A stretch of DNA of 27,703 nt, from the IMG/VR virus record IMGVR_UViG_3300009503_000100, positions 1 to 27,703 of that record; one strand, 5' to 3'. Origin of the DNA: a virus. The notes under the pieces were generated by a model, which worked only from the letters and a program-made list of their open reading frames with translations, was not told the DNA's origin and made no database searches. Below, in pieces: positions 11,425 to 27,703 of this stretch; within the stretch, counting starts at the first letter, position 1; each line of letters opens with the position of its first letter. Position numbers and translations under genes: made by a program.

Positions 11425-13754
11425 CACAAATCACCACATACTATATCGTCGTATAAAGCGTCCTGCTTCGTTCTGATATCGTACGGGCTCAATTCCAAAG
11501 GCTGCCCGCCAACTGAGATATCACCATAATAACCTGGTTCATGAACATGTGTCCCAGTGTTTGCAAAATCTTTACAATATATTGTATAATCCGTTTGGAC
11601 TCTGATTTCTCCTTCATTCGTTATTTTTTTAACTCCTACATTATCTACATCCACAACTATCTTTGTTGTGCCATTTACAGGATTCAAAAAGTATAGATTT
11701 ACGCCATTGTCCAGATTAAACGAAGAAGAGAGCGGGTAATTCGCAAACGTTGTCCATGAGGGCATATCCCCGAAGATAACTTCATTTGGAATAGGATATG
11801 ATTGTGAATTTTTACATTTAATTTTGCTGTTGCTGTCATAGAGATGCATTTGGGTTTTGGGCGTTACGCTGTTTTGGAACTCTAAATAATTTGCAGTTAA
11901 TGAATAACCTGGGTTAATTTGAATTTTATCAAATTTATGTTGTCCATTATCTATAATCGTTAGATCCCCTACTAAGTTAACCGTGTTCGTATGGTTAAAT
12001 ATCGCCGCTCCTTCTAAAGTAATATTCCCTTTTGCGTTCCACATCGTGCTTGCAATTGAAACATTCGCAGCCGTCCCAATGGAGAACGTTGAATTAGTTG
12101 TTAACGTTGAAGCTGAAGTGATATTAACTGTGCCATCCGCAGAAAATGTTGAACAATTGATTGAATATCCATTGCTATTAAATATTGTGTTCGCAGTAAT
12201 CACTAATCCGCTCGGTGAAATATTTGCCCCCAAAGTATATGTGGAATTAAATGAATTAGTCATGATATCTGGTTGCTTGACTGTTAGAATACCTGTGCAA
12301 TTTGAACCTTTGAAACCTGCGTCTGGGTCTTCACTGTTAAATTGCCCGTAAACATCAAAATCGCCGTTGGATTTTTTGTTAACGAACCAACGATTATTAC
12401 CTCCACCATAAAATTTAACTGATTTGTTATAAATGGTATTTTCGAATTGTAATTTTCCATTAAGGTAAAAATATATACTTATTTGAGCCCCTGTAGCGCT
12501 TGTAATAATACTATCCTTGATTGTAATCGGAACTGTGCAATTATACATATGGATAGAGGGGTCGCCAGTCGTATACGTCGTGAATGAATTATTTTCAATT
12601 ACTATTTGATTGTATCCTGCAACTTGTGCAGGGTATCCAAATGCAAAAGCAGCGTAATAACTCTTCATATTTACATATTTGAGATATATAGAAGAGTTAT
12701 TCCCAGCTACGTTAAGTCCACCCCAGATAGTATTTTTTCCGAGTTGGAGAGGATTTGCGCTTGTCCCTTCAAAATAGATTTTTCCATAAATTACTTGAGC
12801 GCTACCAGACGAACCTCCATCAATTACTGCGCCAGGCGTGGTACATTTCCATGTATCTTGTCCATTAATATACACCCACCCAACTTTCACGTTATCTATA
12901 ATTTCCCACGTATAATTGTTGTTTCCACCGACAGTAGAAATGTTAAACTGAAAATCAAGATTTTTTGTTTTGAGCACGACGTTTTGGGCATCCGCACCAA
13001 AATACCAATTACTACCCGTGCATGGTGTCCTTGTTGTTGAAAGATAACCTTGCACCGTAAATATTGCGTTTGCTTCATTTGTTCTGAATGCGTTTGAGCA
13101 TGAATTGCTAAATGAACCCGCATTACCAGAGTGCCCGATTGTCAACTCAACCCCATTCGCTAATGTTTTCCAACCCGCACCCGAAAAAGTTAATACATTT
13201 TGGACGTTAGTACTATTGTTGAATTTTGTTTGATAACTTCCTTGCGCTGTCAAATTCCAAAATGTCATAGACCCTGAAATATCAATATTATTTGAGGCGG
13301 CGTTGAGTGTGATTGTTCCATTATTGTGGTTAAACGTTCCACCAACATAATAACTTAGATTTCCTGAAATTGTGCATGAACCCGAACTATTTGGAGCGTT
13401 GAAAGTTCCATCGGAAAATATAGATAGAGCCCCGCACGATAATATATACGCTGTATTTGCTGTTCCAAGCGTTCCATGTATTTCAAGAGAGGTAGCTGCC
13501 GTTATTGTTCCAGTGCTCGTTTGAACTACTCCACCACTCGCTACAGTGAACGTTGGCGAATTAATAGAATATGTTGATATGTTTAATACTCCGTTAATCC
13601 AAATTGAATTCACAGCAACGTTAACGTCGAGTAAAATAGTATCTCCTACTTGAATAATAACGTCATCCGAAGAAGTAGGAACTGCGCCACCCTGCCAAGA
13701 ACTACCACTACTCCAATTCCCGCCCCCCGTTCCGTTTGAGTAGATTGTTGCCAT
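11424..13754 (-). CDS. large beta-helix fibre protein of the head-neck region
   Basis: A 776-residue, Ser/Thr/Asn/Gly-rich protein that begins MATIYSNGTGGGNWSSGSSW. Repeating short strands (for example NSIWINGVLNISTYSINSPT, GTITAATSLEIHG, NLVGDLTIIDNGQ) point to a right-handed beta-helix, the fold of tail spikes and adhesins. A later part includes GQFNSEDPDAGFKGSNCTG and a compact C-terminus (PGYYGDISVGGQPLELSPYD). It has no signal peptide. Its place between the capsid decoration genes and the connector, not after the tail genes, suggests a head or neck fibre. The upstream ribosome site is weak (GGTAATGCGAT). Confidence 0.6.
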   Translation of the reverse strand: MATIYSNGTGGGNWSSGSSWQGGAVPTSSDDVIIQVGDTILLDVNVAVNSIWINGVLNISTYSINSPTFTVASGGVVQTSTGTITAATSLEIHGTLGTANTAYILSCGALSIFSDGTFNAPNSSGSCTISGNLSYYVGGTFNHNNGTITLNAASNNIDISGSMTFWNLTAQGSYQTKFNNSTNVQNVLTFSGAGWKTLANGVELTIGHSGNAGSFSNSCSNAFRTNEANAIFTVQGYLSTTRTPCTGSNWYFGADAQNVVLKTKNLDFQFNISTVGGNNNYTWEIIDNVKVGWVYINGQDTWKCTTPGAVIDGGSSGSAQVIYGKIYFEGTSANPLQLGKNTIWGGLNVAGNNSSIYLKYVNMKSYYAAFAFGYPAQVAGYNQIVIENNSFTTYTTGDPSIHMYNCTVPITIKDSIITSATGAQISIYFYLNGKLQFENTIYNKSVKFYGGGNNRWFVNKKSNGDFDVYGQFNSEDPDAGFKGSNCTGILTVKQPDIMTNSFNSTYTLGANISPSGLVITANTIFNSNGYSINCSTFSADGTVNITSASTLTTNSTFSIGTAANVSIASTMWNAKGNITLEGAAIFNHTNTVNLVGDLTIIDNGQHKFDKIQINPGYSLTANYLEFQNSVTPKTQMHLYDSNSKIKCKNSQSYPIPNEVIFGDMPSWTTFANYPLSSSFNLDNGVNLYFLNPVNGTTKIVVDVDNVGVKKITNEGEIRVQTDYTIYCKDFANTGTHVHEPGYYGDISVGGQPLELSPYDIRTKQDALYDDIVCGDL

Positions 13755-13766
13755 ATCGCATTACCA

Positions 13767-14129
13767 TCAAGCCTTTGCGTAGTAGAGATATGCATTGATT
13801 GTAGTAGTCCCCGATGTAGTCGCAGCAGATAATTTAATGAAACGATACGTCCCAACCCATGAGATTATATATTTCCCAGATGCTGCGATAGTCGTTCCGC
13901 TGCCGTTGTCCAACTCAAACCACTCACTGCCATCCGCGGAAATTCTTGGATACACAACAACACTATTTGCACCCGTATTTTTAATTGCAAAGAAACCCGT
14001 CGCTCCTCTTATTTCTGTTGCACTGATAACATCTGAAACAGAGGTGGTTACCGTAGCGTTTGAATTGGTCTTCGTGCCGTGGTAGCGCATCACTGCGCCT
14101 ATTTTTTCTGTCTTTTCTACTTCTGCCAT
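13767..14129 (-). CDS. head decoration / small beta-sandwich protein candidate
   Basis: A 120-residue protein: a charged N-terminus (MAEVEKTEKIGAVMRYHG), then a beta-sandwich-like domain with ISATEIRGATGFFAIKNTGA, ISADGSEWFELDNGSGTTI and GTYRFIKLSAATTSGTT. Short single-domain beta proteins next to the capsid gene often decorate the capsid lattice or support fibres. GGTG stands 7 nt before the ATG and the gene ends 13 nt before the beta-helix fibre gene, so it may anchor that fibre. The role is inferred from position. Confidence 0.5.
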   Translation of the reverse strand: MAEVEKTEKIGAVMRYHGTKTNSNATVTTSVSDVISATEIRGATGFFAIKNTGANSVVVYPRISADGSEWFELDNGSGTTIAASGKYIISWVGTYRFIKLSAATTSGTTTINAYLYYAKA

Positions 14130-14139
14130 TTGCTAGCAC

Positions 14140-14484
14140 CTACAGATAACCGAATGCTACGAAACGAACGTCAGTTAATGAAGATAAATCAGCTGCGTTC
14201 GGAACTTCAACGAGCGCACCACCACTTGTTGAAGTGTAATATGCTTTTACTTTTCTGTTCGTATAATCATATTGAAATACATAGCCCGAATTTGCTTCAA
14301 ACAGGACTAAATAAGGGTCTTTGCCATTGAACTGCCCCCTCAAATCAAAACTTTCACCGCCCGTTGGATATGAATTGTCAAAAGCGATACTACCAGCAAC
14401 AAAACCACCACGTGAAGCGATATGAGCCAAAAATTTATTATCTGTTTTGTATGTCTGACTTCTATACGTTATCGTTAACGCCAT
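14140..14484 (-). CDS. capsid-associated protein following the major capsid gene
   Basis: A 114-residue protein of a type commonly found directly downstream of phage major capsid genes: ASRGGFVAGSIAFDNSYPTG near the middle, a YQYD strand with NRKVKAYYTSTSGG, and a closing DLSSLTDVRFVAFGYL. The role in phages is not fixed; decoration or head completion is the usual suggestion. GAGGTGA lies 4 nt before the ATG. The terminator-like hairpin separates it from the capsid gene, so it is probably made at a lower level. Confidence 0.6.
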   Translation of the reverse strand: MALTITYRSQTYKTDNKFLAHIASRGGFVAGSIAFDNSYPTGGESFDLRGQFNGKDPYLVLFEANSGYVFQYDYTNRKVKAYYTSTSGGALVEVPNAADLSSLTDVRFVAFGYL

Positions 14485-14507
14485 TTTTTCACCTCATATA
14501 AAATTTT

Positions 14508-14534
14508 AAAAATGAGGAGGCGTTGACCTCCTCA
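14508..14534 (-). terminator. hairpin terminator after the major capsid gene
   Basis: The minus strand reads TGAGGAGG-TCAACG-CCTCCTCA (14513-14534), a perfect 8-bp stem with 6-nt loop, followed by TTTTT. It begins 6 nt after the capsid stop codon. Stem plus U-tract resembles an intrinsic terminator; archaeal termination mainly needs the U-tract. Partial read-through or RNA processing here would favour capsid over downstream products. Confidence 0.6.
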
Positions 14535-14540
14535 ATTAAT

Positions 14541-15734
14541 TTACTTCTTCAAGTCTCTTGCTTTGCCTTGTGCTTTGAAGTGCCTGCAAGTCAACTCGCC
14601 CGCAGTCCTATACATTATCTTATCGCTTAACTTGTTGACGCCGAATGGTGTTCCGCTGGTAATCCCTGCCTCAAAGAACTGAGTTGGCTTGAGGACTTTG
14701 AAGCAAAGCCTTGGGTAGTCGTCGCCTTCTGGATTGGAGGTGTCAAGCAGATAAAGTCTTGAAATACCGCCTGAACTCTGAGCGTCCTGAACAACGTTCT
14801 TTGAAATTATCAGAGGTATGCCGTAAAGCGTCGCAACGTTAATTCCAACGCCAATCCCATCCTGCGTTTGAATTCCGTTCACGCCGATTTTTGCAGTCGT
14901 CTGCCCCAGCACGGAATACCGAACTTGGATGTCATAGAGCCCTGTTATTGCGCTGTAGGTATCCCAGCCCGTGAGCCACAGCGTCGGTTGCCCGCCGTTC
15001 TGCTGCACGTTAACAAGAACGTCCCTAATTATTTCGTCGGTCAATGAACGCAGTGTTGAGGAGTTATGATTGACATATGCGTCTGCAAATGAAGCGCCGC
15101 CGTCCCTGTCAAGTCCATAGATGTCCAAATCGCCCGCGGAGTAAGATGTAATCTCGTCGTTTTCTCTGCAATTGGATAATTCGGAATACGAAGCAACTAC
15201 ACGGTCAATACTATCAAATTGGTCTCCTGCAAGCGTTCCGTTTTGAGTTGTCAATGCAACGTTAATATCTTCTGCATGCTCTATACCTGCGTAAGCAACT
15301 AATTGCGCATAATCTGGACCAACGTCGTCTTCGCTCTGTTCTGCAAGCGCACGCTCCAATTCGCTCAACTCGTAGACGCTTGCGTTAGTCTTCGGTGTAG
15401 TCTTGAATACTGAAATCGTTGGCTTAACGCTGTCTGGAAGCGTTGCCGCTTCTGCACGCCCACCGAACGGCATCGTTGCAGACCGTGCAGTGATTACACG
15501 ATGTCCAGCCCTTGCCCACGGTACTTTAGGCAGAACTCCAAAGACGTTTGCCTCGTGATTGAGAATGCTCCAAACCTTGGCGCCATACACAGCGTTATAG
15601 ACGCCCGTTGTTCCAATTGTTATCGGTGCGTCTGCTTTCGCAATTGTTTCAGTCTCATTCAACATTGCGCCAATACCGCCGTAGTAATAGCGCTCCATAT
15701 CTTGAATTGTTTTAAATTCAAATGCGTTTCCCAT
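14541..15734 (-). CDS. major capsid protein, HK97 fold
   Basis: A 397-residue protein in the canonical place after the protease/scaffold. The N-terminus (MGNAFEFKTIQDMERYYYGG) is helical like an HK97 N-arm; the body has long insertion-free beta/alpha segments, for example IGTTGVYNAVYGAKVWSILN, SIDRVVASYSELSN, GGQPTLWLTGWDTYSAITGL and GITSGTPFGVNKLSDKIMYR. I see no obvious cleavage site, but the protease upstream suggests N-terminal processing. GAGGTGA stands 6 nt before the ATG, and the codon usage is more GC-rich than the neighbours, as expected for the most abundant protein. A hairpin terminator follows. Confidence 0.85.
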   Translation of the reverse strand: MGNAFEFKTIQDMERYYYGGIGAMLNETETIAKADAPITIGTTGVYNAVYGAKVWSILNHEANVFGVLPKVPWARAGHRVITARSATMPFGGRAEAATLPDSVKPTISVFKTTPKTNASVYELSELERALAEQSEDDVGPDYAQLVAYAGIEHAEDINVALTTQNGTLAGDQFDSIDRVVASYSELSNCRENDEITSYSAGDLDIYGLDRDGGASFADAYVNHNSSTLRSLTDEIIRDVLVNVQQNGGQPTLWLTGWDTYSAITGLYDIQVRYSVLGQTTAKIGVNGIQTQDGIGVGINVATLYGIPLIISKNVVQDAQSSGGISRLYLLDTSNPEGDDYPRLCFKVLKPTQFFEAGITSGTPFGVNKLSDKIMYRTAGELTCRHFKAQGKARDLKK

Positions 15735-15748
15735 TATTATTCACCTCA

Positions 15749-16213
15749 TTAAAAATTTCTTTTCTTGTTGACCAACTCAGTCAACTCACGCCACGATGGG
15801 TTCTTTGAGCCCCGCAGCATATCAAGAACAATATTATCCTCGCTTTCATTGTTGTAAATTATTTTATCTTGAACTGGTCTTGGTGTTGTATCAACTTTCA
15901 CGATGGGATAATTCTGTTTAACAACTTCTTCTTGTTTCTTTTCAATTTTTTCGGGAGGCTTTGTTTTCTTTGCTTTCGTGCTCTCCTCAACTTCTTCGTC
16001 TTCACCCAGCATCGCAATCAATTTATTAAGCGCACCTTCAATTTTCGTCAAACGCTCTATTAACTCATCCGAGAAACGTGGCTCTTCTTGTTTTTCTTTT
16101 TCTCCCCTCGGTTTCTTTTCCTCAGGGGGCTTCTCTTCAACAGGCTTTGGCAACTCGGGCTCTTTCTTTGTTTCGGTTGCCTTCGCCTCTTCTTTTTTCA
16201 TTTCATTATTCAT
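15749..16213 (-). CDS. nested capsid scaffold protein from an internal in-frame start
   Basis: Inside the protease gene, GGTGGTGA is followed 4 nt later by an in-frame ATG at 16213, the same arrangement that starts the tail tube, decoration, helicase and other genes here. Translation gives a 154-residue protein (MNNEMKKEEAKATETKKEPE...) that is the charged coiled-coil scaffold without the protease. Known lambdoid phages make a scaffold this way (Nu3 inside C). Separate scaffold in excess over protease fits procapsid assembly. The site falls exactly at the boundary between the folded part and the low-complexity part, which would be unlikely by chance. Confidence 0.65.
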   Translation of the reverse strand: MNNEMKKEEAKATETKKEPELPKPVEEKPPEEKKPRGEKEKQEEPRFSDELIERLTKIEGALNKLIAMLGEDEEVEESTKAKKTKPPEKIEKKQEEVVKQNYPIVKVDTTPRPVQDKIIYNNESEDNIVLDMLRGSKNPSWRELTELVNKKRNF

Positions 16214-17083
16214 TATATCACCACCATACAGAATACTTTTAATTGTTTGCATTTTTTCATGTATGATTTTAAAATCTATTGGCGCGTTATCAGGGTCTTC
16301 CTTCTTTGTGCCCATACCCCATTCGTGGAACCACATTGAACCACAAACTGCAGCAGCTTGCTCATCTGTATAACTCGGCATTCCTTCCTTAACACGTCGT
16401 ATGCATTTATTCCACCACTGTTTCGGCGGTCTCGCGTCCTCGGGTTTATCCACGTCTTCCGATTCTTTATTTGCCTTGCCTTCTACTCTATGCATTATCG
16501 CTGCACAATATGCTTGCGGGTCGTCCTTATCCTTATTTTGATTTACGCAGTCTTCAAAATTCTTATACCCTGCGAAGGGTTTTTGAACGTCGGTATTTTC
16601 AGATTTTGCCACGAAATTCACCTGCTCATTAAGAGCATAAGGATTAGCAGGTTCACGCACCGTTGAAAATTCGTATAATTCAAGGTTTCTTAATTCGCTG
16701 ACTTGCTCACCGTCTATTGTTTTCTGTAATTTCTTTTTTCTGCTGCCTCCAAAACTTATTCCCCGTCGTATTCCTTGCTTAATCTCATTCCAAACTTGGT
16801 CATCTAAATCGTAATGGTCAAAAACTTTTGCTGTTATAAAAAGCCCTTCTTTCTTCGTTTCTGGATGCTCTTTGAATGCATAATTGATTACTTTGCCAAC
16901 AACTTTATTTGTGTGTTGGTCAATTAGTGGAGCGCCACGTTCAATATAGACAGGCATAAGGCGCTTAACCTCTTCCATAGGTATTATTTCGCCTACTTTG
17001 TCTTTTGCTTCAACTGTCGCCCACGCTGTAAAAATTCGTTCGTTATCATTGAGAATTTCGTTAACAGGATATTGTTCTACCAT
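15749..17083 (-). CDS. prohead protease fused to scaffold
   Basis: A 444-residue fusion starting at an ATG with GGAG 7 nt upstream (a TTG at 17104 is an alternative). Residues 1-150 are an XkdF/HK97-type prohead protease: IFTAWATVEAKDKVGEIIPM, GAPLIDQHTNKVVG with the likely catalytic His57, GIRRGISFGGSRKKK with the likely Ser110, and LYEFSTVREPANPYAL. Next comes a Cys-containing module with FEDCVNQNKDKDDPQAYCAA and a second related copy (WWNKCIRRV...AAAVCGSMWFHEWG), a pattern seen beside phage proteases. From about 290 the protein is a Lys/Glu/Pro-rich scaffold with a helix RFSDELIERLTKIEGALNKL. An internal start at residue 291 makes the scaffold alone. Confidence 0.8.
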   Translation of the reverse strand: MVEQYPVNEILNDNERIFTAWATVEAKDKVGEIIPMEEVKRLMPVYIERGAPLIDQHTNKVVGKVINYAFKEHPETKKEGLFITAKVFDHYDLDDQVWNEIKQGIRRGISFGGSRKKKLQKTIDGEQVSELRNLELYEFSTVREPANPYALNEQVNFVAKSENTDVQKPFAGYKNFEDCVNQNKDKDDPQAYCAAIMHRVEGKANKESEDVDKPEDARPPKQWWNKCIRRVKEGMPSYTDEQAAAVCGSMWFHEWGMGTKKEDPDNAPIDFKIIHEKMQTIKSILYGGDIMNNEMKKEEAKATETKKEPELPKPVEEKPPEEKKPRGEKEKQEEPRFSDELIERLTKIEGALNKLIAMLGEDEEVEESTKAKKTKPPEKIEKKQEEVVKQNYPIVKVDTTPRPVQDKIIYNNESEDNIVLDMLRGSKNPSWRELTELVNKKRNF

Positions 17084-17129
17084 GCTAAACTCCAACGCTT
17101 GCAAAATTTATAAACGTATTTGAGAAACT

Positions 17130-18401
17130 TTAGAGATAACCCCACTCTTCTAATTGTTCTAATTGTGTTATGAAATTATCGCCGATATCATTTCTGTATT
17201 GAATGCGTGGCAGCACAATATCATTAATGCTCTCATAAACTCGCTTTTGGACTAATTCAAATACACTCCCTGCAGATGCAACTGTTCCAATGTAACCTAA
17301 CGTTCCTGCTGTCTGCAGTATATCGTTCGCTTGTTTGACTTCATGCGGGTGGAATGAAACATAACGCAGGAAAGAAATTGGAATTCCAGAGGGGTCTATG
17401 GATTCTATCCTGTGCGGATAAGGTGGAATTGTAATCAAAACACCTAATGAATACGTAGGGTGAGGCTCGAAATATTCATTAGAAATTAAGCGATTGAGTA
17501 AATCTTTTGCACCGTATCCATTGTGTTTGAAAAATTCTAATTCAATACTCGTTGAATTATAACCAAAACGTGGAGTAAATTCCAAAAAATGATAGCCGTC
17601 TTCGTTTGCGATTCCGTTGATATTAAATGAACCAACATATCCTGCTTTTTTGAGTAATGGGATTAATTTTTTAAACGTTGAATTGAATAAATCGGTTGGC
17701 TCTTCAAACCAACGCATCGCTTCGCCTTCTTGCCCCGTAAGAACGCCAACGTTGCCAGCAAGATTATATTTATACTCGTGGTCTATGTAATATGGCATGA
17801 CCCAACTGCTGCCGTCAAAATATCCCGTAATCCCAACTTCTATCCCTTGGATAAATTCTTGCAAAATAAATGAAACGTCGCCCCATTCTTTTTGCCAAAT
17901 CTTTTTGTAATAATACAAAATTTCTATTACATCCTCACCGCTTTTTATCTTTCCACAATACACCAAATCTTTTATGTTTCCAGCGTTGCCGTTGAATTTT
18001 ACAACGTAGCGTTTCGGATTTTCTTTAATGAAATTTATCGCTTCTTCAAAATCGTTAAATTCGTAATCCTTCGGAATGAGCAAATCCATATATTCCTTCG
18101 CAACTTGAGCGCCAAAATCTCTTTTAGCTTCTAAGTTGTCACATAGTTCCGCTCCACCAACGATAACGTAACCATCCTCTTTTAATTCGCTTGCTCGTGT
18201 TCCAAAGCCCGTGTCCTCAAATACGATTACGTCTGCCCAGTCTTTGTCTTTTTCCCAGTCCTCACTCTTGTTAATTATCCCTTCGCCGATTTCGTGCTGC
18301 TCTGGGTCTTGGATATACCATTTAACATCCACACCGTCCTTCTTTAGACTGTTGCAAAAGTCAAGCGCTAAAGCGTCTTTCCCAACAATTAGAACTTTCA
18401 T
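17130..18401 (-). CDS. ATP-grasp ligase, PurD-like, embedded in the capsid operon
   Basis: A 423-residue protein with the full layout of glycinamide ribonucleotide synthetase (PurD) enzymes: a Rossmann-like N-terminus MKVLIVGKDALALDFCNSLK, an ATP-grasp part with RYVVKFNGNAGNIKD (K135), ILQEFIQGIEVGITGYFDG (E182, E188), IDHEYKYNLAGNVGVLTG and FLEFTPRFGYNS (E274). The usual EFN of the metal site reads EFT here. ATP-grasp enzymes join a carboxylate to an amine through an acyl phosphate. The ATG overlaps the portal stop (ATGA) and the protease follows closely, so it is made with the head proteins. No other purine gene is present, so modification of a capsid component or of a small molecule is more likely than purine synthesis. 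Confidence 0.8.
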   Translation of the reverse strand: MKVLIVGKDALALDFCNSLKKDGVDVKWYIQDPEQHEIGEGIINKSEDWEKDKDWADVIVFEDTGFGTRASELKEDGYVIVGGAELCDNLEAKRDFGAQVAKEYMDLLIPKDYEFNDFEEAINFIKENPKRYVVKFNGNAGNIKDLVYCGKIKSGEDVIEILYYYKKIWQKEWGDVSFILQEFIQGIEVGITGYFDGSSWVMPYYIDHEYKYNLAGNVGVLTGQEGEAMRWFEEPTDLFNSTFKKLIPLLKKAGYVGSFNINGIANEDGYHFLEFTPRFGYNSTSIELEFFKHNGYGAKDLLNRLISNEYFEPHPTYSLGVLITIPPYPHRIESIDPSGIPISFLRYVSFHPHEVKQANDILQTAGTLGYIGTVASAGSVFELVQKRVYESINDIVLPRIQYRNDIGDNFITQLEQLEEWGYL

Positions 18402-20485
18402 TCAACCACCACAACAGCGGTATGTCTGCAGTTCGGATGTGGCGTCCATTCCCTGGCTTCTATTCCTTCACGTTCTGCTTCTTCTTTGATTATGCGTTTA
18501 AGCATGTCTAAATCAACGCCGTTTCGTGTTCGTTGTTTAATCCGCTTGCAGATGTTTGTTGTTCGGTGGTCTTGCGGTCCAACCCACCGATATTTGCGCT
18601 CACCCTCGGGGTCTAAATCTCTATACGCCAACTCCCTTAATTTGCTGTATAATTCGTGGCTTTCTGTTCGTGCTATCCGTTCTGCTTCTTCTTCGCTAAC
18701 GTTTCCTTCTTTTTTGATTTTTTCTATCAATTCATTAAGTGAAACTTTCCTAAGCAACCAATCGAGAAACTTTGATTTGATTCGTTCTGATGCTGTTTTA
18801 CTCATAGTCTTGAAACGTGGAAATAATGAACGCTTGAGTTTGCGTTTATCTTCTTTTCTTAGGCGCGGAATAAATTCCTTATTAATCTCTTTTCCTGCGA
18901 ACGAATACAACAACTCTATTTTATCCTCGTCGTTCATATCCTCTTTGATTAAATCAGTTGAACGCTCTAACGAAGCAATTGGAGCACCATCTTCGCCAAA
19001 ATATTTGAATTGTTGTGGTTCCACTGCTTGCGTCTGCTCTTGCGCTGTTGTCTCTTCTGTTTTTCGTTTAACTGCAACTAAATTACCTTCCTCGTCTATG
19101 TTGATATCAAATCCAAGTGCTTGCATGTTAATTGCGTTCGTTATCTTTGCGCTCTTAATCTCTTCCTCTCTTAACTCGTCTCTCATTTCAACGCTCTTTA
19201 ACACGTATTCGTAATCTGTTATTCCGATTTGATTTAATAACCATCTAAAAACTTTTTGATTATAGATTTCCTGCCCTGACCTAACTGCTCGTGAGGTGAC
19301 GGTAATCTGCAAGCGTTCTTGATTTAGTCCGCCCGATGTTTCAACGTCTGCTTGGAAGATAGGCATAACGCCGTAAAGCCCACCAATTACCCGCCTAAAT
19401 TCATTTCTTACTTCTGTGAATTGCATCTCCTCTAACGAATGTGATAAGTCTATGAATTCCGCAAGCGCCCGTCCTTCATTTTCAACAACGATGGGGGTTA
19501 TTGCGTGTGGATTATTGCGTGCAGTTTCAAGCGCTGCAAGATATGCCTTTTGAAAACTTTCCGCATTCTTAGAAGCAATAAATAGAAGTCCCCTCGGTGT
19601 TCGCTGTAGTTGGTAATATAATCTGATATACCTATCCTGCGCTAAAAGCGTTGAAAGTTTGAGCCACAACGTCAACGTAGGTGGGAAGCCATATAGCAAC
19701 GTTGAATATTTATTAACGTGCAAGACCTCGCCTTTGATATAATAATGCCACGCTTCCTTAACTCTTGTTTTGTAATAGGCTCTAAAGAGTGGTAACCCAC
19801 AAATTCTGCATTTAGTCCCATCCTGCGGCGTGTCTCTGTGTTGGATACAGACTTTGATTTCTTTTCCGTTGACGTCGTATCCCATGCGCCCAGTTTTATC
19901 TGCAATGATGCGCATGCTCAACGGGTCGCCTCTGATTATCTCAACAACTTTTGAGTCTACAATTTGGTTATTTTGCAACTCGTATTCCTTGCGCACGATG
20001 AAGTATCCGATATCCATAATGTTGAGGTCGTCCTCAACTGATTTGCAGACATCAAGCAATGTCTGCTCGTTCTCATTGACTTTCTCCACCAACTGCTCAA
20101 GTGTGATTTTCTGCTGAATGTTTGGTTCTCGTAATTGCCCACCGCAGATATCGCAACGCATATCTTTATCCTCATGCTGAAATTCCTTCCCGCACTGTGT
20201 GCATTTTACAACAAATTTTTCTTTAACCTCTGCGCCGTTTCTAAAAATCTCAACACGTAGAGCGTTGATAATTGTTCGCAACACGTCGGAGTAATAAGCC
20301 ATCTCGTAAAGCATGCGTGGATTGACAGGGTAATTAGGCAGCGCATCGGAACCTGCAAGCGATAAAATTTGGTTAACCTGTGGCCGTGCTGCAATTTGTT
20401 CAAAATTATTTATCTGCGCTTGCTTTAGTATATTACTAAAATCGTTCGCTTTCAAAATTTCAATATTCAAAAAAGGGATGCGCAT
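18398..20485 (-). CDS. portal protein with zinc ribbons and C-terminal MuF-like domain
   Basis: A 695-residue protein. The first about 500 residues are a portal (DNA entry ring): SLAGSDALPNYPVNPRMLYE, HVNKYSTLLYGFPPTLTLWL, RRVIGGLYGVMPIFQADVET and GLNQERLQITVTSRAVRSGQ. Two metal-binding pairs interrupt it: C95/C98 with C111/C114, and C213/H216 with C226/C229. Such zinc ribbons are typical of portals in archaeal and thermophilic viruses. After about 590 comes a MuF-like (gp7/gp30) head morphogenesis domain with ARTESHELYSKLRELAYRD and a final WTPHPNCRHTAVVVVE. It lies between the zinc-finger gene and the ATP-grasp gene and overlaps the latter by 4 nt. A TATA-like element (20511-20520) before it may give a second promoter. 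Confidence 0.85.
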   Translation of the reverse strand: MRIPFLNIEILKANDFSNILKQAQINNFEQIAARPQVNQILSLAGSDALPNYPVNPRMLYEMAYYSDVLRTIINALRVEIFRNGAEVKEKFVVKCTQCGKEFQHEDKDMRCDICGGQLREPNIQQKITLEQLVEKVNENEQTLLDVCKSVEDDLNIMDIGYFIVRKEYELQNNQIVDSKVVEIIRGDPLSMRIIADKTGRMGYDVNGKEIKVCIQHRDTPQDGTKCRICGLPLFRAYYKTRVKEAWHYYIKGEVLHVNKYSTLLYGFPPTLTLWLKLSTLLAQDRYIRLYYQLQRTPRGLLFIASKNAESFQKAYLAALETARNNPHAITPIVVENEGRALAEFIDLSHSLEEMQFTEVRNEFRRVIGGLYGVMPIFQADVETSGGLNQERLQITVTSRAVRSGQEIYNQKVFRWLLNQIGITDYEYVLKSVEMRDELREEEIKSAKITNAINMQALGFDINIDEEGNLVAVKRKTEETTAQEQTQAVEPQQFKYFGEDGAPIASLERSTDLIKEDMNDEDKIELLYSFAGKEINKEFIPRLRKEDKRKLKRSLFPRFKTMSKTASERIKSKFLDWLLRKVSLNELIEKIKKEGNVSEEEAERIARTESHELYSKLRELAYRDLDPEGERKYRWVGPQDHRTTNICKRIKQRTRNGVDLDMLKRIIKEEAEREGIEAREWTPHPNCRHTAVVVVE

Positions 20486-20507
20486 TCATTTCACTTCTTT
20501 TTAATGA

Positions 20508-20879
20508 TTAATATTTAAATGTATTTGAGAATTGTTTTGAGAATTTTGATATACAATGACTGCAAATATAAGGATTAACGAAATATAATTTGGGTGTTAA
20601 ACGCCCGCATACATCACATTCACGAGGATGTAGATAATTTTTTGCAATTCTAAAACGTATAGGTAAACGCTCCAACAAACGTTTTTCAACGCAGCGCTTA
20701 CATAATCCCAGTTCAACAGGGACTAAACGCTCTTCATAGCGTCCACAAATACCACAAACACCTGCGGTTAATTGATTTGCTTTTTTGATTTTGACCGCTT
20801 GATTATATGACAGCCACGATGGAATTTTGTAGTTATTTTCTAAATCTCTTCTAATTTCACCTATCGTTGCAATATTCAT
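20508..20879 (-). CDS. double zinc-finger protein between terminase and portal
   Basis: A 123-residue protein with four Cys pairs: C42GIC45, C60KRC63, C88DVC91 and C106SHC109, enough for two zinc sites of ribbon or treble-clef type. The N-terminal 35 residues are helical (EIRRDLENNYKIPSWLSYNQ) and the C-terminus is short and aromatic. GGTGA stands 4 nt before the ATG, which also overlaps the preceding stop as ATGA. The place between terminase and portal suggests a role in packaging or a nucleic acid-binding adaptor; I do not recognise a named family. Confidence 0.7.
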   Translation of the reverse strand: MNIATIGEIRRDLENNYKIPSWLSYNQAVKIKKANQLTAGVCGICGRYEERLVPVELGLCKRCVEKRLLERLPIRFRIAKNYLHPRECDVCGRLTPKLYFVNPYICSHCISKFSKQFSNTFKY

Positions 20880-21106
20880 TGTTTCACCTTATCTGTGTTT
20901 CGTAATTGCGCCCACTCAATCATGAAACGTTGCCATAACGCATTGATATTCTCTTCACCGTATGTTTGAAGACCATCATATAATTCATTAACGATATTGC
21001 GCCATGCTTTGAAATCTGTTACGTCCGCGTTTGGATGCAATGCCCATTTTTCTTTTGCGAATTCCTTAACGAATATAATTCCTTCAATGTATCCATATCT
21101 TTTCAT
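20876..21106 (-). CDS. 76-aa protein of unknown function following the large terminase
   Basis: The protein begins MKRYGYIEGIIFVKEFAKEK and continues with helices (AWRNIVNELYDGLQTYGEEN, LWQRFMIEWAQLRN). It starts directly after the terminase stop (TAAATG) and its own stop overlaps the next gene by ATGA, so it is translated with its neighbours. No cysteine pairs, membrane segments or known motifs are visible. A packaging accessory role is suggested by position only. Confidence 0.65.
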   Translation of the reverse strand: MKRYGYIEGIIFVKEFAKEKWALHPNADVTDFKAWRNIVNELYDGLQTYGEENINALWQRFMIEWAQLRNTDKVKQ

Positions 21107-22540
21107 TTATACACTCCCCATCAACGCAGATATATCGGGCAGCACTAACGCCCGTCCTGTGTTTGTCATGCCATAAAATGCAAGCGCTAATGAAGAAACA
21201 TAATCGTCATGCGCCCCGTCAACGTCGGGGTGGTGGCAGCGCAACAAATTACCAGAATACTCTTTGTTTAAATCCAGCATTTGTTGTTCAAATCGTTTCA
21301 CTTCTCGTGTTTTCTGTGCTTCCTGCCCATATGGATATTTTATACGTTTTTTTAATAATGCGTTTTGAAGTTGTAAGAAAACTTCGTGATGCGATTGTGG
21401 AGTCCATTTGAAGCCCTCGATGCTGTAACGTGTTCTGTTTTTGAACATATCTACAACGGGGTCGCCAACGCCCACCGCATCAATGATTACGCGCTTAACG
21501 TTGTAGTTCGCTAAAAAGTTTTTGGTAATTTCAACTTGTGCTTCGTAGTCCTCCCCTTTCAACTCTAACCAATTCAGGATATTAAATTGGTTCCCAATGT
21601 TTTTAAGAAGTGTAACTACGGTGCTGTCAACGTCTCTTGCGATATCGATTCCTGCAACGATTTCGCTATCTTGTGCTTTGTCCTCTTTCACGATTTCGTA
21701 ATTTTCTCGTAATTCAAATAATTGCTGGGCTGTTATGAATTTACTAACCCCAAATATCCATTTCAAATTGTATTGACTTTGGAACTCGTCGCTATCCTCA
21801 CCAATACGTTCCTTAACTTCTTCAATATATTTTGTATAATTAGGATTGTATTTAGCAGCGGTCGTATACGGTAGAATAAAAACCCTTTGATTGCGTGTTA
21901 TACCGTCGCAAAAATAGCGGTATTGTGAACCAAGCGCGGGCGTTCCTATCAGAACACGTGTTGCGTTTGTTGAGGAGCCCATAGGAATTATGTCTTCTTT
22001 GATTTTTTTATCGGGGATATCTTGGCATTCTTCAAGGATAATCAAATCAAATGTATATCCTTTGATAGTTGTGTCAGGAGACGCAGTCAAACATGCAACG
22101 CTGCTAATTTTTTTCTTTGTGTTTGTTATTGTAATTTCGTTTGCATTATACGTCGTGAAATCGTAACCAAATTTTCGGAGTTGTGGTAATGCTTTATCGT
22201 ATGCATCTTTTAAACGTTGAAATGTAATTCTGCTTTGGTCAAATTTCGGAGCGAATATACCAACCTGAAAAACTTTATTTTCCAAAACAGGGTAAAACAA
22301 AGATAGAAAGAAAGTTGTTTGCGCAATTGTGGTTGACTTCCCCGATTGGCGAGCTAACTCCATATAGATTTCGCCGCCTTCGTTCTCTACAACGCTCTTA
22401 ATTATCGCATCGCTAATTTGGCGTTGGTATTCGTAGAGGCAGCAATTAGTCAATTTAAGCAGCATGTAGTCTCTTAATTCACATAACAGTTTCACTTTTT
22501 GCTCGTTGTTCAAACCGCTGTATAAAAGTTGCGAGTTCAT
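21107..22540 (-). CDS. terL: large terminase subunit (ATPase-nuclease)
   Basis: A 477-residue protein from the ATG at 22540, or slightly more if a TTG upstream is used. Motifs in order (numbering from 22540): Walker A ARQSGKST (63-70), Walker B LIILEEC (166-172), a coupling GTPALGS stretch (199-205), and an RNase H-like nuclease with D299 (VAGIDIARDVDST), D354 (VIIDAVGVGDP) and D445-D446 (AHDDYVSSLALA). It cuts concatemeric DNA and drives it into the procapsid through the portal. It overlaps the small terminase end by 62 nt. A palindrome (GAGGTGCCACCTC on the plus strand) lies just before the start and could mask the ribosome site. Confidence 0.92.
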   Translation of the reverse strand: MNSQLLYSGLNNEQKVKLLCELRDYMLLKLTNCCLYEYQRQISDAIIKSVVENEGGEIYMELARQSGKSTTIAQTTFFLSLFYPVLENKVFQVGIFAPKFDQSRITFQRLKDAYDKALPQLRKFGYDFTTYNANEITITNTKKKISSVACLTASPDTTIKGYTFDLIILEECQDIPDKKIKEDIIPMGSSTNATRVLIGTPALGSQYRYFCDGITRNQRVFILPYTTAAKYNPNYTKYIEEVKERIGEDSDEFQSQYNLKWIFGVSKFITAQQLFELRENYEIVKEDKAQDSEIVAGIDIARDVDSTVVTLLKNIGNQFNILNWLELKGEDYEAQVEITKNFLANYNVKRVIIDAVGVGDPVVDMFKNRTRYSIEGFKWTPQSHHEVFLQLQNALLKKRIKYPYGQEAQKTREVKRFEQQMLDLNKEYSGNLLRCHHPDVDGAHDDYVSSLALAFYGMTNTGRALVLPDISALMGSV

Positions 22541-22937
22541 TGTCAAGAGGTGCCACCTCAACTTTATTCAATATACTTATTTTTTCACCTTTTAATGCGG
22601 GTAATTTATCTAAGCGTTGTAACGTCTCAATTAAACGCTCCTCCATGTCGTCTATTTGCTTTAGAATTTTGCGGCGCTCTTTGTCGTTCTCTGCGCGTGC
22701 ATACATTGCCCAAAGTTCTCTGATGCGCTTCAACTTTCCTTCCTCGTAACGGTGGATGTAAGCGTCTATTTCATTTTCTAATTGTTTAGCGCGTTCCTTT
22801 CCTGCTACTTGAACATCTTTCCACACTGTTGAGTAAGCAAGGTCTAATGTGTCTGCTATCTGTTGAAGCGTGAAACCTAACGTTCTTAGTTCAATGATTT
22901 TTTTACGCCGTGCCAGCGTCAACAGCGTGCTCTTCAT
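22479..22937 (-). CDS. terS: small terminase subunit
   Basis: A 152-residue protein that precedes terL. The N-terminal helix-turn-helix (LARRKKIIELRTLGFTLQQI, ADTLDLAYSTVWKDVQ) is the DNA-recognition domain of small terminases; a long helical middle (YEEGKLKRIRELWAMYARAE and KILKQIDDMEERLIETLQRL) should form the oligomerisation core, and the tail (FIQRFEQRAKSETVM) may contact the large subunit. Small terminase selects viral DNA for packaging. The gene overlaps the ParB-like remnant by 35 nt and terL by 62 nt. No strong ribosome site precedes the ATG at 22937, so the start is uncertain; a TTG 12 nt downstream is possible. Confidence 0.8.
   Translation of the reverse strand: MKSTLLTLARRKKIIELRTLGFTLQQIADTLDLAYSTVWKDVQVAGKERAKQLENEIDAYIHRYEEGKLKRIRELWAMYARAENDKERRKILKQIDDMEERLIETLQRLDKLPALKGEKISILNKVEVAPLDNELATFIQRFEQRAKSETVM
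22547..22559 (-). promoter_or_regulatory. palindrome overlapping the terL ribosome site
   Basis: The minus strand reads GAGGTGGCACCTC. GAGGT and ACCTC form a 5-bp stem with a GGC loop, which pairs the only nearby Shine-Dalgarno sequence (GAGGTG) with its own complement. It lies within the small terminase coding region 7-19 nt before the terL start codons. Ribosomes finishing the small terminase could open it, which would couple the two products. Confidence 0.35.
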
Positions 22938-23396
22938 AGAAACGAACCAACGTCAAAAATTTATCTGAAAATTTATTTGATTTTATGCTTAATAAAACTT
23001 TATCTATCTCCTCCGCTTGTTCTTTCTTTGTTATTATAAAAGAGTAGGTTTTAGAAAATTGTTCAACATCTGCAGGGATTTCTGGTGGCGCATCTGGGAG
23101 TTGACGCAAGATATCGTAGCCTTTCATTTCTGCCTCCTGCAAATTTAATAAATCTTCAAGTTGCTGCAACGTAAATGAGTTCTGCAAATCGCTTAACAGG
23201 TTAGCGAACTTAAGAGGGTCAAGTGCGCCTCTAATTTTGTTTAGATTTACTGTTAAAATTTTTGCTTCGTTGTAAGGTCTATGAACCCAACTCGCTTGAT
23301 TTCACGCTTGAGGTGTTCATAATCTGATTCTTGCATTTCGTTTGGGTTCCACGTGTTCGTTTTTAACTCACTTATTTTTATAACGTCATATTTCAT
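22903..23396 (-). pseudogene. ParB-like nuclease gene, broken: catalytic core deleted and frame shifted
   Basis: From the ATG at 23396 (ATGA overlap with the upstream gene) a 47-residue frame reads MKYDVIKISELKTNTWNPNE and continues to KRVGFIDLTTKQKF, then stops at 23253-23255. This is the N-terminal part of ParB/Srx-fold proteins of phages. In another frame (open from 23301 down, without an ATG) the remainder follows: YNEAKILTVNLNKIRGALDP, LLSDLQNSFTLQQLEDLLNL and a C-terminal KKEQAEEIDKVLLSIK. The part that normally lies between, with the catalytic DG.HR motif, about 40-50 residues, is missing. Phage ParB-like proteins often precede the terminase genes. It could be a decayed gene, an assembly gap, or two separately made pieces (a TTG at 23187 could start the second). 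Confidence 0.65.
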
Positions 23397-23872
23397 TGCA
23401 TCCCCTCGTTTCCATTATTCACATTTACACCTGCTCCTGCGGTTTGCGTCTCTTGTGTCTGCTGCGCTTGAGGAACTGCAAATTTACGCACGCCGATATG
23501 TAGTTTGAGCAACTTGTCTTTATCTATCTCATTTTTTCTAATTAAATCTCTTAGATGCCCGCGGACGCAGACCTCAGAAAGTCCAATCTCCCCTGCGAGT
23601 TGTATTAGTGAAAACGGAGTATTAGTTATTATCTTATTAAGCAGGGCTTGTTTAATCCGTGCTTGTCGTTCGGAATACCGTCCCCTAATACGTTCGCCAC
23701 GCCCGAACGTTTTAATTCCTTTTTTCCTCAGGAATGTTAAAACAGATGGAGCAGTGCAGCCGTAGCGCTGCCCTAATTCTGCTAACGTTGCACCTGCAAG
23801 ATATTCATTAATAATCTGCTGCTGTTGCTCAAGCGAGTATTTCTTCTCGAACGCATGCACATACCTATACAT
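23393..23872 (-). CDS. DNA-binding protein with two helix-turn-helix domains
   Basis: A 159-residue protein from the ATG at 23872, which has GAGGTGA 4 nt upstream (a GTG at 23917 lies within the upstream gene and is less likely). The first HTH (LEQQQQIINEYLAGATLAEL, GQRYGCTAPSVLTFLRKKGI) resembles resolvase/transposase-type HTH; a basic linker (GRGERIRGRYSERQARIKQA) follows; the second, winged-helix-like HTH reads PFSLIQLAGEIGLSEVCVRG. The C-terminus is Gln/Asn-rich and disordered. Such proteins are regulators or recognition factors. It lies before the ParB-like and terminase genes and is overlapped by the former (ATGA), so it may control late genes or bind the packaging site. Confidence 0.7.
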   Translation of the reverse strand: MYRYVHAFEKKYSLEQQQQIINEYLAGATLAELGQRYGCTAPSVLTFLRKKGIKTFGRGERIRGRYSERQARIKQALLNKIITNTPFSLIQLAGEIGLSEVCVRGHLRDLIRKNEIDKDKLLKLHIGVRKFAVPQAQQTQETQTAGAGVNVNNGNEGMQ

Positions 23873-23892
23873 TCCGTCACCTCGTAAATTTT

Positions 23893-24024
23893 TTAATCGG
23901 CGTGTTTCTTGCGCCACCTAACAATTTCTTCATCAGTTGTGTAATCCTCGTCGTCGTTTCTATACATCTCATATTCTTCATTCCATTCTCCTTCGGTTAA
24001 ACGTTTTGTTTTTTTATCTTTCAT
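23893..24024 (-). CDS. 43-aa acidic protein
   Basis: The frame reads MKDKKTKRLTEGEWNEEYEM and continues YRNDDEDYTTDEEIVRWRKKHAD. GAGGTG lies 5 nt before the ATG. The gene fills the space between the 93-residue gene (9 nt upstream) and the HTH protein, whose ribosome site follows shortly after the stop. It has a basic start, a strongly acidic middle (NDDEDYTTDEE) and a basic end. I recognise no family. The codon pattern and position support a real gene. Confidence 0.65.
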   Translation of the reverse strand: MKDKKTKRLTEGEWNEEYEMYRNDDEDYTTDEEIVRWRKKHAD

Positions 24025-24033
24025 TTGAACACC

Positions 24034-24315
24034 TCAGGGACTCGCTGCAACGTCCTGGGAAGGTTTGACTTTTGCGCGGTCATTGATAAAGAGGTTGAAG
24101 GCTTCGGTTACGCCGTCCTTACGTTTGATAACCACGTGGTAATACGCTCTGTGGCGCTTCGTGATGCGCTCCCACGCAGCGATACGCTCGCCTTTCTCTG
24201 TGCGCCCTGTAAAATCAGGTTGCGTCGGCGCAGGTTTGGTTGCAGCGCCTAAAGTTGTTTGTGTTTGTTTTTGTTGTGGCTGGAAGTTGACTTTTTGTAT
24301 ATTCACATTTGCCAT
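24034..24315 (-). CDS. 93-aa protein of unknown function, first gene of the regulatory operon
   Basis: The N-terminal third is Gln/Thr/Pro-rich and probably disordered (VNFQPQQKQTQTTLGAATKP); the rest is a small basic domain (ERIAAWERITKRHRAYYHVV, IKRKDGVTEAFNLFINDRAK), perhaps a beta hairpin with a helix. GAGGTGA stands 4 nt before the ATG at 24315 and a good BRE/TATA promoter lies upstream. The location after the control region and before DNA-binding proteins is compatible with nucleic acid binding, but no known motif supports it. Confidence 0.7.
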   Translation of the reverse strand: MANVNIQKVNFQPQQKQTQTTLGAATKPAPTQPDFTGRTEKGERIAAWERITKRHRAYYHVVIKRKDGVTEAFNLFINDRAKVKPSQDVAASP

Positions 24316-24344
24316 GTACTCACCTCGTGTCGCTTTATATACAC

Positions 24345-24365
24345 ATATAACTATATAAACCTTTC
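24345..24365 (-). promoter_or_regulatory. BRE and TATA-box promoter of the regulatory/packaging operon
   Basis: The minus strand reads CCGAAAGGTTTATATAG: a BRE-like purine block CGAAAG followed by TTTATATA, centred about 37 nt before the ATG at 24315. With a start site about 25 nt downstream the leader would be some 12 nt and hold the GAGGTGA site. This is the best archaeal promoter in the window and probably serves the genes leftward into packaging. Confidence 0.65.
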
Positions 24366-24407
24366 GGTCAGGTTAGATTTATATAAGTTAATATGTTTTA
24401 TTTATAA

Positions 24408-24596
24408 ATGTTATTGGAACACAAAGTTTATAAACTTTTCTTCTTCTCTGGAGTTTCCTCCACAACCTTCACAGAAAGAAAGGCTGCTGAACCCAAACAA
24501 GTTGGAATGCGATTAAACGCACAGAAGCGAACTTTAAACCTACGAACGCTGCGCGCCCGCTCTTCCCTTCCTCCTCCCTGCGCCAAACAACCTTAA
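24408..24596 (+). CDS. possible leaderless plus-strand gene (uncertain)
   Basis: A 62-residue frame beginning MLLEHKVYKLFFFSGVSSTT. A TATA-like element TTTATATA at 24378-24385 is spaced so that transcription would begin almost at the ATG, as in archaeal leaderless mRNAs, and it would be the only plus-strand gene. Against it: the sequence resembles no family I know, its C-terminal third is low-complexity, and the minus strand has a comparably plausible 52-residue frame over the same bases (TTG at 24586, stop at 24428, ending KVVEETPEKKKSL) with an upstream TATA near 24620. At most one of the two is likely to be real. Confidence 0.2.
   Translation: MLLEHKVYKLFFFSGVSSTTFTERKAAEPKQVGMRLNAQKRTLNLRTLRARSSLPPPCAKQP
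24423..24438. promoter_or_regulatory. 16-bp perfect palindrome, operator candidate
   Basis: AAAGTTTATAAACTTT reads the same on both strands and encloses a TATA-like core. It lies about 65-75 nt upstream of the BRE/TATA promoter at 24345-24365. A related palindrome ATTTATAAAT occurs at 24400-24409 and again at 24960-24969. A dimeric repressor, such as the HTH protein at 23393-23872, could bind here; that link is a guess. Confidence 0.4.
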
Positions 24597-24991
24597 CGGC
24601 CAAATAAAAAGGCGGCGTATATATTCGAATTTTTTCGACTTTTTAATTTTGAAACGGAAGGTATATAAATTTGGGGGGGCAATTCTTAGTTAAAATCCCT
24701 TCCCAAAATCTTTTTTTACGTCTTACCAAAAACATTATTAGGATAGTAAGAAAAATTGCCCCCCTTTTTTTCACGCCGAAGACTTGTAATTTTAACGTCG
24801 TAAAAAAAATTGCCCCCCCATGTTTTACGGCGTTAAAACCTCTTTTTTTAAAATGCCTTTCACTGAAAACAAAATTAGTGTTAAGGTTTTTTGTTATTCC
24901 GTAGTTATGGAATTTTTTTAGTGTTTTTAAAATTGCCCCCCTCAAAATTGCCCCCCAACATTTATAAATCTTATCCTAAAACAAAATTAGT
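24597..24991. other. AT-rich intergenic region with repeats; no convincing gene
   Basis: About 395 nt with no gene I can support. The sequence is rich in A and T runs broken by C6-C7 or G7 blocks. It holds the AATTGCCCCCC repeats, a 14-bp direct repeat (AAAACAAAATTAGT at 24866-24879 and 24978-24991), and TATA-like elements near 24620 and at 24662-24670 (GGAAGGTATATAAAT on the plus strand). It lies between the helicase-side genes and the regulatory operon and is best read as a control or origin region. Confidence 0.5.
24673..24956. repeat. five AATTGCCCCCC elements (iteron-like)
   Basis: On the plus strand AATTGCCCCCC (C6 or C7) occurs at 24754-24764, 24808-24819, 24931-24941 and 24946-24956, and in inverted orientation at 24673-24684 (GGGGGGGCAATT). 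The first and second copies can pair as an inverted repeat; the last two are tandem with a 15-bp period. The surroundings are T- and A-rich. Repeated G/C-blocks in an AT-rich region next to primase and helicase genes are what replication origins and multi-copy regulator sites look like. Confidence 0.7.
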
Positions 24992-25303
24992 TTAAACTCT
25001 GCGGCTGGCATCTATTTTTTCCCTAAGGTTCCTCCAAACATTAATTAATCCTTGCCGCCACTCTTCCATGTCTTCCCTTGTTAATATATAAGGTGTGTTA
25101 TGATTTCGCTTTGTGCATGAATATCCATTGCTTTTAGCTACCTTCTCATAGTCTATAACCATAAAGAACTCGTTTTCGTCTTGCTGATACATCGTTTCTG
25201 ACCACACTAAAAAGTTCGGGTCTCCAGTTTCGTAGATTATTAATTTTGCTATTTTCTTTGCTTTTGCCGTGTCATATACTTTTTCGCCAGTAGCCAATTT
25301 CAT
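24992..25303 (-). CDS. YDT-family small protein, paralogue of the gene at 304-534
   Basis: A 103-residue protein of unknown function. The N-terminus TGEKVYDTAKAKKIAKL and the later ETMYQQDENEFFMVIDYEK and REDMEEWRQGLINVW parallel the 76-residue protein at the left end, so both belong to one family with a conserved YDT..KA..IA motif and a beta hairpin. A Cys/His-containing insertion (NGYSCTKRNHNTPYI) is unique to this copy. GAGGTGA, which contains the helicase stop, stands 4 nt before the ATG, so it is translated with the helicase. Its stop ends the replication operon. Confidence 0.75.
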   Translation of the reverse strand: MKLATGEKVYDTAKAKKIAKLIIYETGDPNFLVWSETMYQQDENEFFMVIDYEKVAKSNGYSCTKRNHNTPYILTREDMEEWRQGLINVWRNLREKIDASRRV

Positions 25304-25307
25304 TTTC

Positions 25308-26873: not shown

Positions 26874-26877
26874 TTAA

Positions 26878-27636: not shown

Positions 27637-27677
27637 ATTATCACCTTTTAGAGAGGGTGTATAGTGTTTTTGCGGGC

Positions 27678-27695
27678 ATAGCTTTAAAAAGCTAT
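27678..27695 (-). promoter_or_regulatory. palindrome with TATA-like core upstream of the primase
   Basis: ATAGCTTT-AA-AAAGCTAT is a perfect 8-bp inverted repeat. On the minus strand its centre, CTTTTTAAAG, can serve as a TATA box about 45-55 nt before the primase ATG. An operator that overlaps the box would allow repression of the replication operon. Confidence 0.45.
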
Positions 27696-27703
27696 CTTAC
27701 TAA

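Follow-up and report, generated by a model that had tools for sequence, protein, structure and literature searches.

A predicted ATP-grasp ligase descended from a purine biosynthesis enzyme among the virion genes of uncultured tailed viruses

The window, i.e. the whole stretch of DNA that was analyzed, is a virus record of 27703 bases. On its minus strand (18401-17130), an ORF of 423 codons plus the stop lies between the genes for the portal and the prohead protease and encodes a member of a distinct family of PurD paralogues for which the name PLP is introduced here. In the direction of transcription, the gene order is terminase, two small ORFs, portal with a MuF-like C-terminus, PLP, protease/scaffold and capsid. 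The ATG of the PLP gene (18401-18399) overlaps the TGA that ends the portal ORF (20485..18398), the two together forming ATGA, which likely reflects translational coupling, and the prohead protease ORF starts 25 bases past the PLP stop. The main features are the following:

17130..18401, minus strand: PLP, PurD-paralogue ATP-grasp ligase (predicted), 423 aa; matches to GARS_A, GARS_C and purD, AlphaFold model, family alignment and tree
18398..18401, minus strand: ATGA, overlap of the portal stop and the PLP start; read from the sequence
17562..17582, minus strand: PLP residues 274-280, EFTPRFG, with the putative metal ligand Glu274, Thr276 (Asn in PurD) and the putative carboxylate-binding Arg278; residue mapping, PurD roles from PMC8880213
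18398..20485, minus strand: portal with a C-terminal Mu F-like domain and a zinc-ribbon insert (residues ~88-120); phrog_18178 E=8e-46, Phage_Mu_F E=5e-5, related to the HCTV-5 portal
15749..17104, minus strand: prohead protease (S78) with a long C-terminal, probably scaffold, part; Peptidase_S78 PF04586, phrog_617/80
14541..15734, minus strand: major capsid protein; phrog_24667 E=8e-55, 33% identity to the capsid proteins of HCTV-5 and other Haloarcula viruses
21107..22561, minus strand: terminase large subunit; phrog_2 E=2e-32, Terminase_6C

An earlier reading of this DNA, made from the sequence only, had described a full-length ATP-grasp, PurD-like enzyme of 423 amino acids that starts inside the portal stop codon and is followed by a protease/scaffold gene; all of this holds, with the minus strand, which that reading did not give, now added, and with the next ORF (17104..15749) matching Peptidase_S78 (PF04586) at 26.3 bits, above the Pfam cut-off of 21. 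The assignment to an archaeal virus is supported as well: in the phage collection, all the records that match the window portal (17/17) or the window capsid (9/9) are archaeal viruses, namely, Haloarcula and Halorubrum viruses and viruses of Methanofastidiosa and Methanomassiliicoccales. As also stated in the sequence-only reading, no further purine (pur) genes are seen among the window ORFs in ORF and profile scans that covered the small ORFs in part.

Just upstream of the portal, the window encodes a small protein (20508-20879) with two zinc-ribbon-like CxxC pairs and no clear family match. A zinc-ribbon insert is common to both portals that directly precede PLP, the one in the window and the one in contig L081 (1369-3630, residues 187-219); the presence of these inserts next to PLP may be a coincidence. 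The idea of a LysW-like carrier, which comes from the zinc ribbon of the L081 portal (E=0.0023), was rejected because the score is under the cut-off and zinc ribbons are common, and also because no LysW-like acidic C-terminus is seen in the neighboring zinc protein.

The modeled fold of PLP is that of PurD, end to end. The AlphaFold model, for which a 44-row family alignment was the input, has a pLDDT of 93.2 and a pTM of 0.91, and its top structural match is the GAR synthetase 2yw2 (Z 31.8 over 388 residues, 21% identity), with PurK and PurT ranking after the GAR synthetases (Z about 23), so that structure prediction bears out the resemblance to PurD that was originally recognized from the sequence. 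By sequence, too, PLP matches a PurD in the PDB (E=2e-12). The family models place PLP outside the range of the genuine enzymes: the NCBIfam purD model yields E=1.2e-16 and 60.6 bits, below the curated equivalog cut-off of 288, the Pfam GARS_A model is just above its cut-off (E=1e-6, 29.1 bits, cut-off 27), and GARS_C falls below. The fold match, together with the ATP and Mg residues, assigns the window PLP to the ATP-grasp superfamily. No Pfam or NCBIfam match to the RimK, GshB or Amidoligase families is detected at E<=0.1, matches in BFVD are weak, and this viral structure library contains no close match to PLP (best TM 0.42 on the query).

The GGREHA loop of the PurD N domain is thought to serve phosphoribosylamine, the structure of the PurD-PRA complex not having been solved. 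In the Aquifex PurD, ATP is contacted by K103, K143, E185, E192 and K214, glycine by D212, R287 and E292, and Mg by E100 (PMC8880213). The equivalents in the window PLP, by alignment, are R94, K135, Q181, E188 and K211 for ATP, E209, R278 and S283 for glycine, and E91 for Mg; these roles are carried over from PurD at about 20% identity and are supported by the fold match. Residues E91, R94, K135, E209, K211, E274, T276 and R278 are invariant in 87/87 PLP rows (66 viral and 21 cellular). Among the glycine contacts, the arginine is kept, the aspartate is replaced with glutamate, and the equivalent of Glu292 is lost, this position being occupied by S, T, A, G or L across the PLP rows. The G.GGREH motif is present in 6/6 PurDs, and GGRE is found in none of the 87 PLP rows, the window protein included. 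The RFGDPE-type signature (PROSITE PS00184, as quoted in PMC3261824) likewise matches 0/87 PLP rows, although only one of the three control PurDs matched it as written; the window has RFGYNSTS at this position and lacks the Asp and Glu of the motif that are invariant in 6/6 PurDs. The replacement of EFN by EFT (residues 274-276), noted in the sequence-only reading as an altered metal site, is real but is no clue to a viral function because it occurs in all PLP rows, including 21/21 cellular ones. The GGMG loop of PurD, in contrast, differs between the viral and the cellular members: it reads GEMG in 21/21 cellular rows, and the second position is C in 41/66 viral rows and Q in the window and in L163 (the respective tripeptides being TGE in cells, TGC in most viral copies and TGQ in the window). 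This difference could mark a change of substrate. Judging from these alignments, ATP and Mg handling and the carboxylate-binding arginine appear to be kept, and the acidic glycine contacts and the GGREHA loop appear to be changed or lost. We infer that neither glycine nor phosphoribosylamine would be the PLP substrate.

The family is not limited to viruses. A scan of genome contigs detected 41 cellular relatives of PLP (29-39% identical), which come from DPANN archaea, one Bathyarchaeota MAG and, among bacteria, Patescibacteria, Planctomycetota, Acidobacteria, Bacteroidota, Pseudomonadota and Myxococcota. In 16 genomes that were compared with the purD model (cut-off 288), true PurD scores 461-565 bits, compared with 82-110 bits for the paralogues. 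True PurD is found beside the paralogue in nine of these genomes, and the paralogue is found alone in the other seven, including all six small DPANN and Patescibacteria genomes, a pattern that, given the incompleteness of MAGs, is suggestive of the lack of a true PurD in these small genomes. The distribution of PLP in cells is patchy, as only about two dozen of the 116 sampled genomes of one DPANN phylum carry a strong match.

In the maximum likelihood tree, PurD and PLP are separated with a branch support of 100/100, and the grouping of cellular and viral PLPs to the exclusion of PurD has a support of 100 in a larger, 90-row tree also. The window PLP is a long branch without a resolved position in the first tree and, with L163 added, pairs with the latter (100); the second tree omits L082, a very long branch. 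Most of the diversity in the 90-row tree is viral: 44 viral rows form one clade, freshwater podoviruses form another, the window and L163 are a pair (100), and there are several other groups. The cellular rows belong to one mixed clade. Some viral PLPs (L164, L166, L167, L170, L208, L171 and L173) lie inside this cellular clade and share 41-56% identity with cellular copies, e.g. those of Bathyarchaeota and Moranbacteria, a placement that would indicate separate transfers between cells and viruses.

No head genes are found near the cellular PLP relatives, in either archaea or bacteria. At eight loci of Bacteroidota/Balneolota (L098, L100, L101, L103, L106, L107, L110 and L111), a GNAT acetyltransferase gene directly follows the cellular PLP; the two possibly make up a two-step pathway that could reveal the substrate. 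A GNAT as a general partner of PLP was rejected because it is a conserved neighbor only in Bacteroidota and their kin and because the GNAT-like genes of podoviruses may be T7 gp13-like.

Among viruses, a single pattern scan of IMG/VR yielded 298 PLP relatives, distributed over several viral clades; 80 of them were retained (earlier scans had produced 75 and 9). Single-sequence scans of IMG/VR with PLP and with the portal recovered only the overlapping contig G001, and family alignments were required to find more. In the phage collection, there is one credible PLP, an unannotated gene of MW202796 with 30% identity over the whole length; other ‘phage’ records with purD matches were not counted as they look like pieces of bacterial chromosomes (Salmonella, Acinetobacter, wastewater/VLP contigs). 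Long PLP ‘fusions’ in L089, L093 and L108 were rejected as domains because they look like GC-rich readthrough frames. The dN/dS values in the seven podovirus-clade pairs with usable dS are 0.05-0.11, which is indicative of strong purifying selection. Text searches of the literature, the coverage of which is partial, with many subscription papers outside it, found no description of the PLP family, so an earlier description is possible. In L082 (1580-7697), a diverged PLP adjoins an S66 LD-carboxypeptidase (MccF-like), and an ATP-grasp gene resembling D-Ala-D-Ala ligases lies a few kilobases farther along; this neighborhood may have to do with peptide chemistry.

The genomic setting of the viral PLPs is recurrent. 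In L163, the order portal-PLP-protease-capsid is kept, with 37, 48 and 37% identity to the window for portal, PLP and capsid, respectively, along with an additional small ORF before PLP and two genes between PLP and the protease that resemble the tail-completion and decoration-like ORFs of the window. In L081, the stop of the gene in the portal position (called by position and local similarity to L224/L234, without a PHROG match) overlaps the PLP start exactly as it does in the window, and genes in the scaffold position and for the capsid follow. Elsewhere, the order is terminase-PLP-portal (L185, L192, L212 and L236, the last being the same as contig L048) or terminase-PLP-one gene-portal (L022, L177, L179, the same as contig L012, L196 and L204), and in the podoviruses MW202796 and L080, PLP lies between large late genes and a tail-fibre-like/lysis region. 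In PHROG scans, the neighbors of PLP belong mainly to the terminase, portal, scaffold, capsid, head-tail adaptor, tape-measure and internal-virion families, with a minority of endolysins and endonuclease VII. By local search, the examined flank contains terminase, portal or capsid at 21 of the 67 non-redundant viral loci, the other 46 being unclassified rather than negative, and a portal lies no more than two genes away from PLP at 12 of the 67. Thus, the link of PLP to late genes is recurrent and frequent, although not universal, and the partner gene is not fixed.

The slot between portal and protease, where the sequence-only reading suggested looking for the same gene in other archaeal viruses, contains PLP in L163 but not in the related haloarchaeal virus HCTV-5, where the annotated interval includes an ADP-ribosyltransferase, a gpF-like gene and others, with no ATP-grasp. 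In vir519, a Methanofastidiosa virus, what lies between portal and capsid is a neck protein gene and a single hypothetical gene. Given these contents, the interval is a variable slot that is able to take modifying enzymes.

Several known systems resemble PLP in part. PurD itself (TIGR00877; PDB 2yw2, 2xcl, 1gso) shares with it the whole-length fold (Z ~30-32), the ATP and Mg residues and the carboxylate-binding arginine; PLP differs in the absence of the GGREHA loop and RFGDPE, the change of D212 to Glu, the loss of E292, the EFT in place of EFN and an extra conserved C-terminal end in many members. Sets of ATP-grasp, amidoligase and GATase genes in phages were reportedly noticed by Iyer et al. 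in 2009. Those of the LUZ24-like phages (PMC3890496) resemble PLP as phage-borne ATP-grasp ligases with putative peptide or amide targets; compared by description, the set of UFV-P2 is in the early region, with an ATP-grasp protein of 291 aa, whereas PLP is a complete PurD-fold paralogue, mostly in the late region. The R2K/CDC123-clade ATP-grasp enzymes of tailed phages, predicted to be protein-modifying (PMC4431377), represent a different ATP-grasp clade, to which the BFVD matches of PLP are weak. The ‘extra’ haloarchaeal PurD-like proteins rrnAC0307 and Hlac_1553, which a 2011 survey judged not to be GAR synthetases (PMC3261824), are likened to PLP by description rather than by sequence: the N-terminal loop is divergent and the Asp of RFGDPE is changed, but these are two cellular cases, with no viral copies noted. 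The head-adjacent ADP-ribosyltransferases and MuF effectors of phages (PMC9503650) are also modifying enzymes encoded beside the portal or the terminase, with a different chemistry.

PLP is thus best explained as a non-purine ATP-grasp ligase that is expressed late, a reading that we consider highly probable. From its residues and modeled fold, it is predicted to be an active carboxylate-amine ligase of a PurD-paralogue family that left purine synthesis. ATP would phosphorylate a carboxylate different from glycine or larger than it, and an amine other than phosphoribosylamine would attack the acyl phosphate to yield an amide. PLP would be produced along with the portal in the late phase of infection, and this is when the amide would form, on a substrate unrelated to purine synthesis. 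As for the target, we lean slightly toward a widely available host-derived substrate, i.e. a metabolite, an envelope component or a conserved host protein, given that the family is also retained by cells that have no head genes and that the genes next to the viral copies differ; this is a guess, weaker than the rest of the interpretation.

Roughly half of the weight given to a host-derived target goes to PLP as a packaged or ejected effector. Under this tentative proposal, PLP would be packaged in the head near the portal and would modify a host molecule when the next infection begins, by analogy with what has been proposed for MuF-linked enzymes and phage ADP-ribosyltransferases. The MuF-like domain of the window portal and the ADP-ribosyltransferase and gpF-like gene of HCTV-5 fit such a role, and effectors encoded next to head genes have been described before (PMC9503650, PMC5512222); however, at 423 aa, PLP has the length of PurD, with no fusion to a MuF or virion domain and no packaging signal seen.

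That PLP adds an amino acid or another carboxylate to a virion protein such as the portal or the capsid while the head is assembled, a target close to the one suggested in the sequence-only reading, is unlikely. The ATGA coupling to the portal, the retention of the portal-PLP order in L163 with different genes downstream, the overlapping portal-PLP-scaffold-capsid arrangement of L081, the adjacency of PLP and portal in the L048 group and the large late or internal-virion-like proteins next to podovirus PLPs all point in this direction, but the portal and capsid families differ among the PLP viruses, leaving no common protein target, and the cellular homologues have no head genes. Of the capsid-modifying ligase originally envisaged, then, the non-purine ATP-grasp ligase stands, and the capsid-specific chemistry does not; the neighbors, which vary with the virus clade (portal, internal virion protein, tail fibre or lysis genes), point to no single virion target. 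Equally doubtful, if not slightly more so, is a virus-dominated family that would modify a virion protein (portal, internal or tail) by ATP-driven amide formation, with the choice of substrate tuned by the loop at the GGMG position.

A true GAR synthetase, borrowed as an auxiliary metabolic gene for purine supply, would have the same fold and ATP site, and general models do name PLP purD-like, but this origin is extremely improbable given the score far from equivalog range (60.6 bits against 288), the altered glycine and N-loop residues, the co-occurrence of true PurD with the paralogue, the identical verdict on the extra haloarchaeal proteins (PMC3261824) and the lack of an accompanying pur gene among the window ORFs that were scanned. 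The sequence-only reading had likewise set its proposal against a borrowed metabolic gene, and the location of PLP outside the PurD cluster, the altered substrate residues and the ties of its relatives to head and virion genes in many other viruses agree with that choice.

PLP is a conserved family with a predicted intact ATP site and an orphan substrate; many uncultured tailed viruses encode it in their late region, and, apart from the unannotated copy in MW202796, it is missing from the named phage records. Viruses appear to have adopted a ligase descended from a purine enzyme, its relatives being encoded amid virion genes in many uncultured tailed viruses that are not related to one another. 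In databases, the mislabeling of PLP as purD or purine metabolism will continue, in viruses as well as in DPANN and Patescibacteria genomes. If its substrate belongs to the virion or the host, PLP would give tailed viruses a novel means of modifying proteins or metabolites and, should virion protein modification prove true, would constitute a new step of head or virion maturation in archaeal and bacterial tailed viruses. Assayable paralogues are carried by cultivable Flavobacteriaceae, Comamonadaceae and Roseomonas.

The window virus is also found within a 33 kb contig (L011, IMGVR_UViG_3300027863_000112), which is 100% identical over window positions 12328-27703 and joins it to a second, tailless-looking element (L011 1-17660) that encodes many membrane proteins, an integrase, and paralogues of the primase and helicase. 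The junction is a repeat of ~290 bases (94%) at the start of the primase gene, the window segments concerned being 27412-27703 and 23524-24579. The contig is either a chimeric assembly or reflects replication genes truly shared by a tailed virus and an element of another kind.
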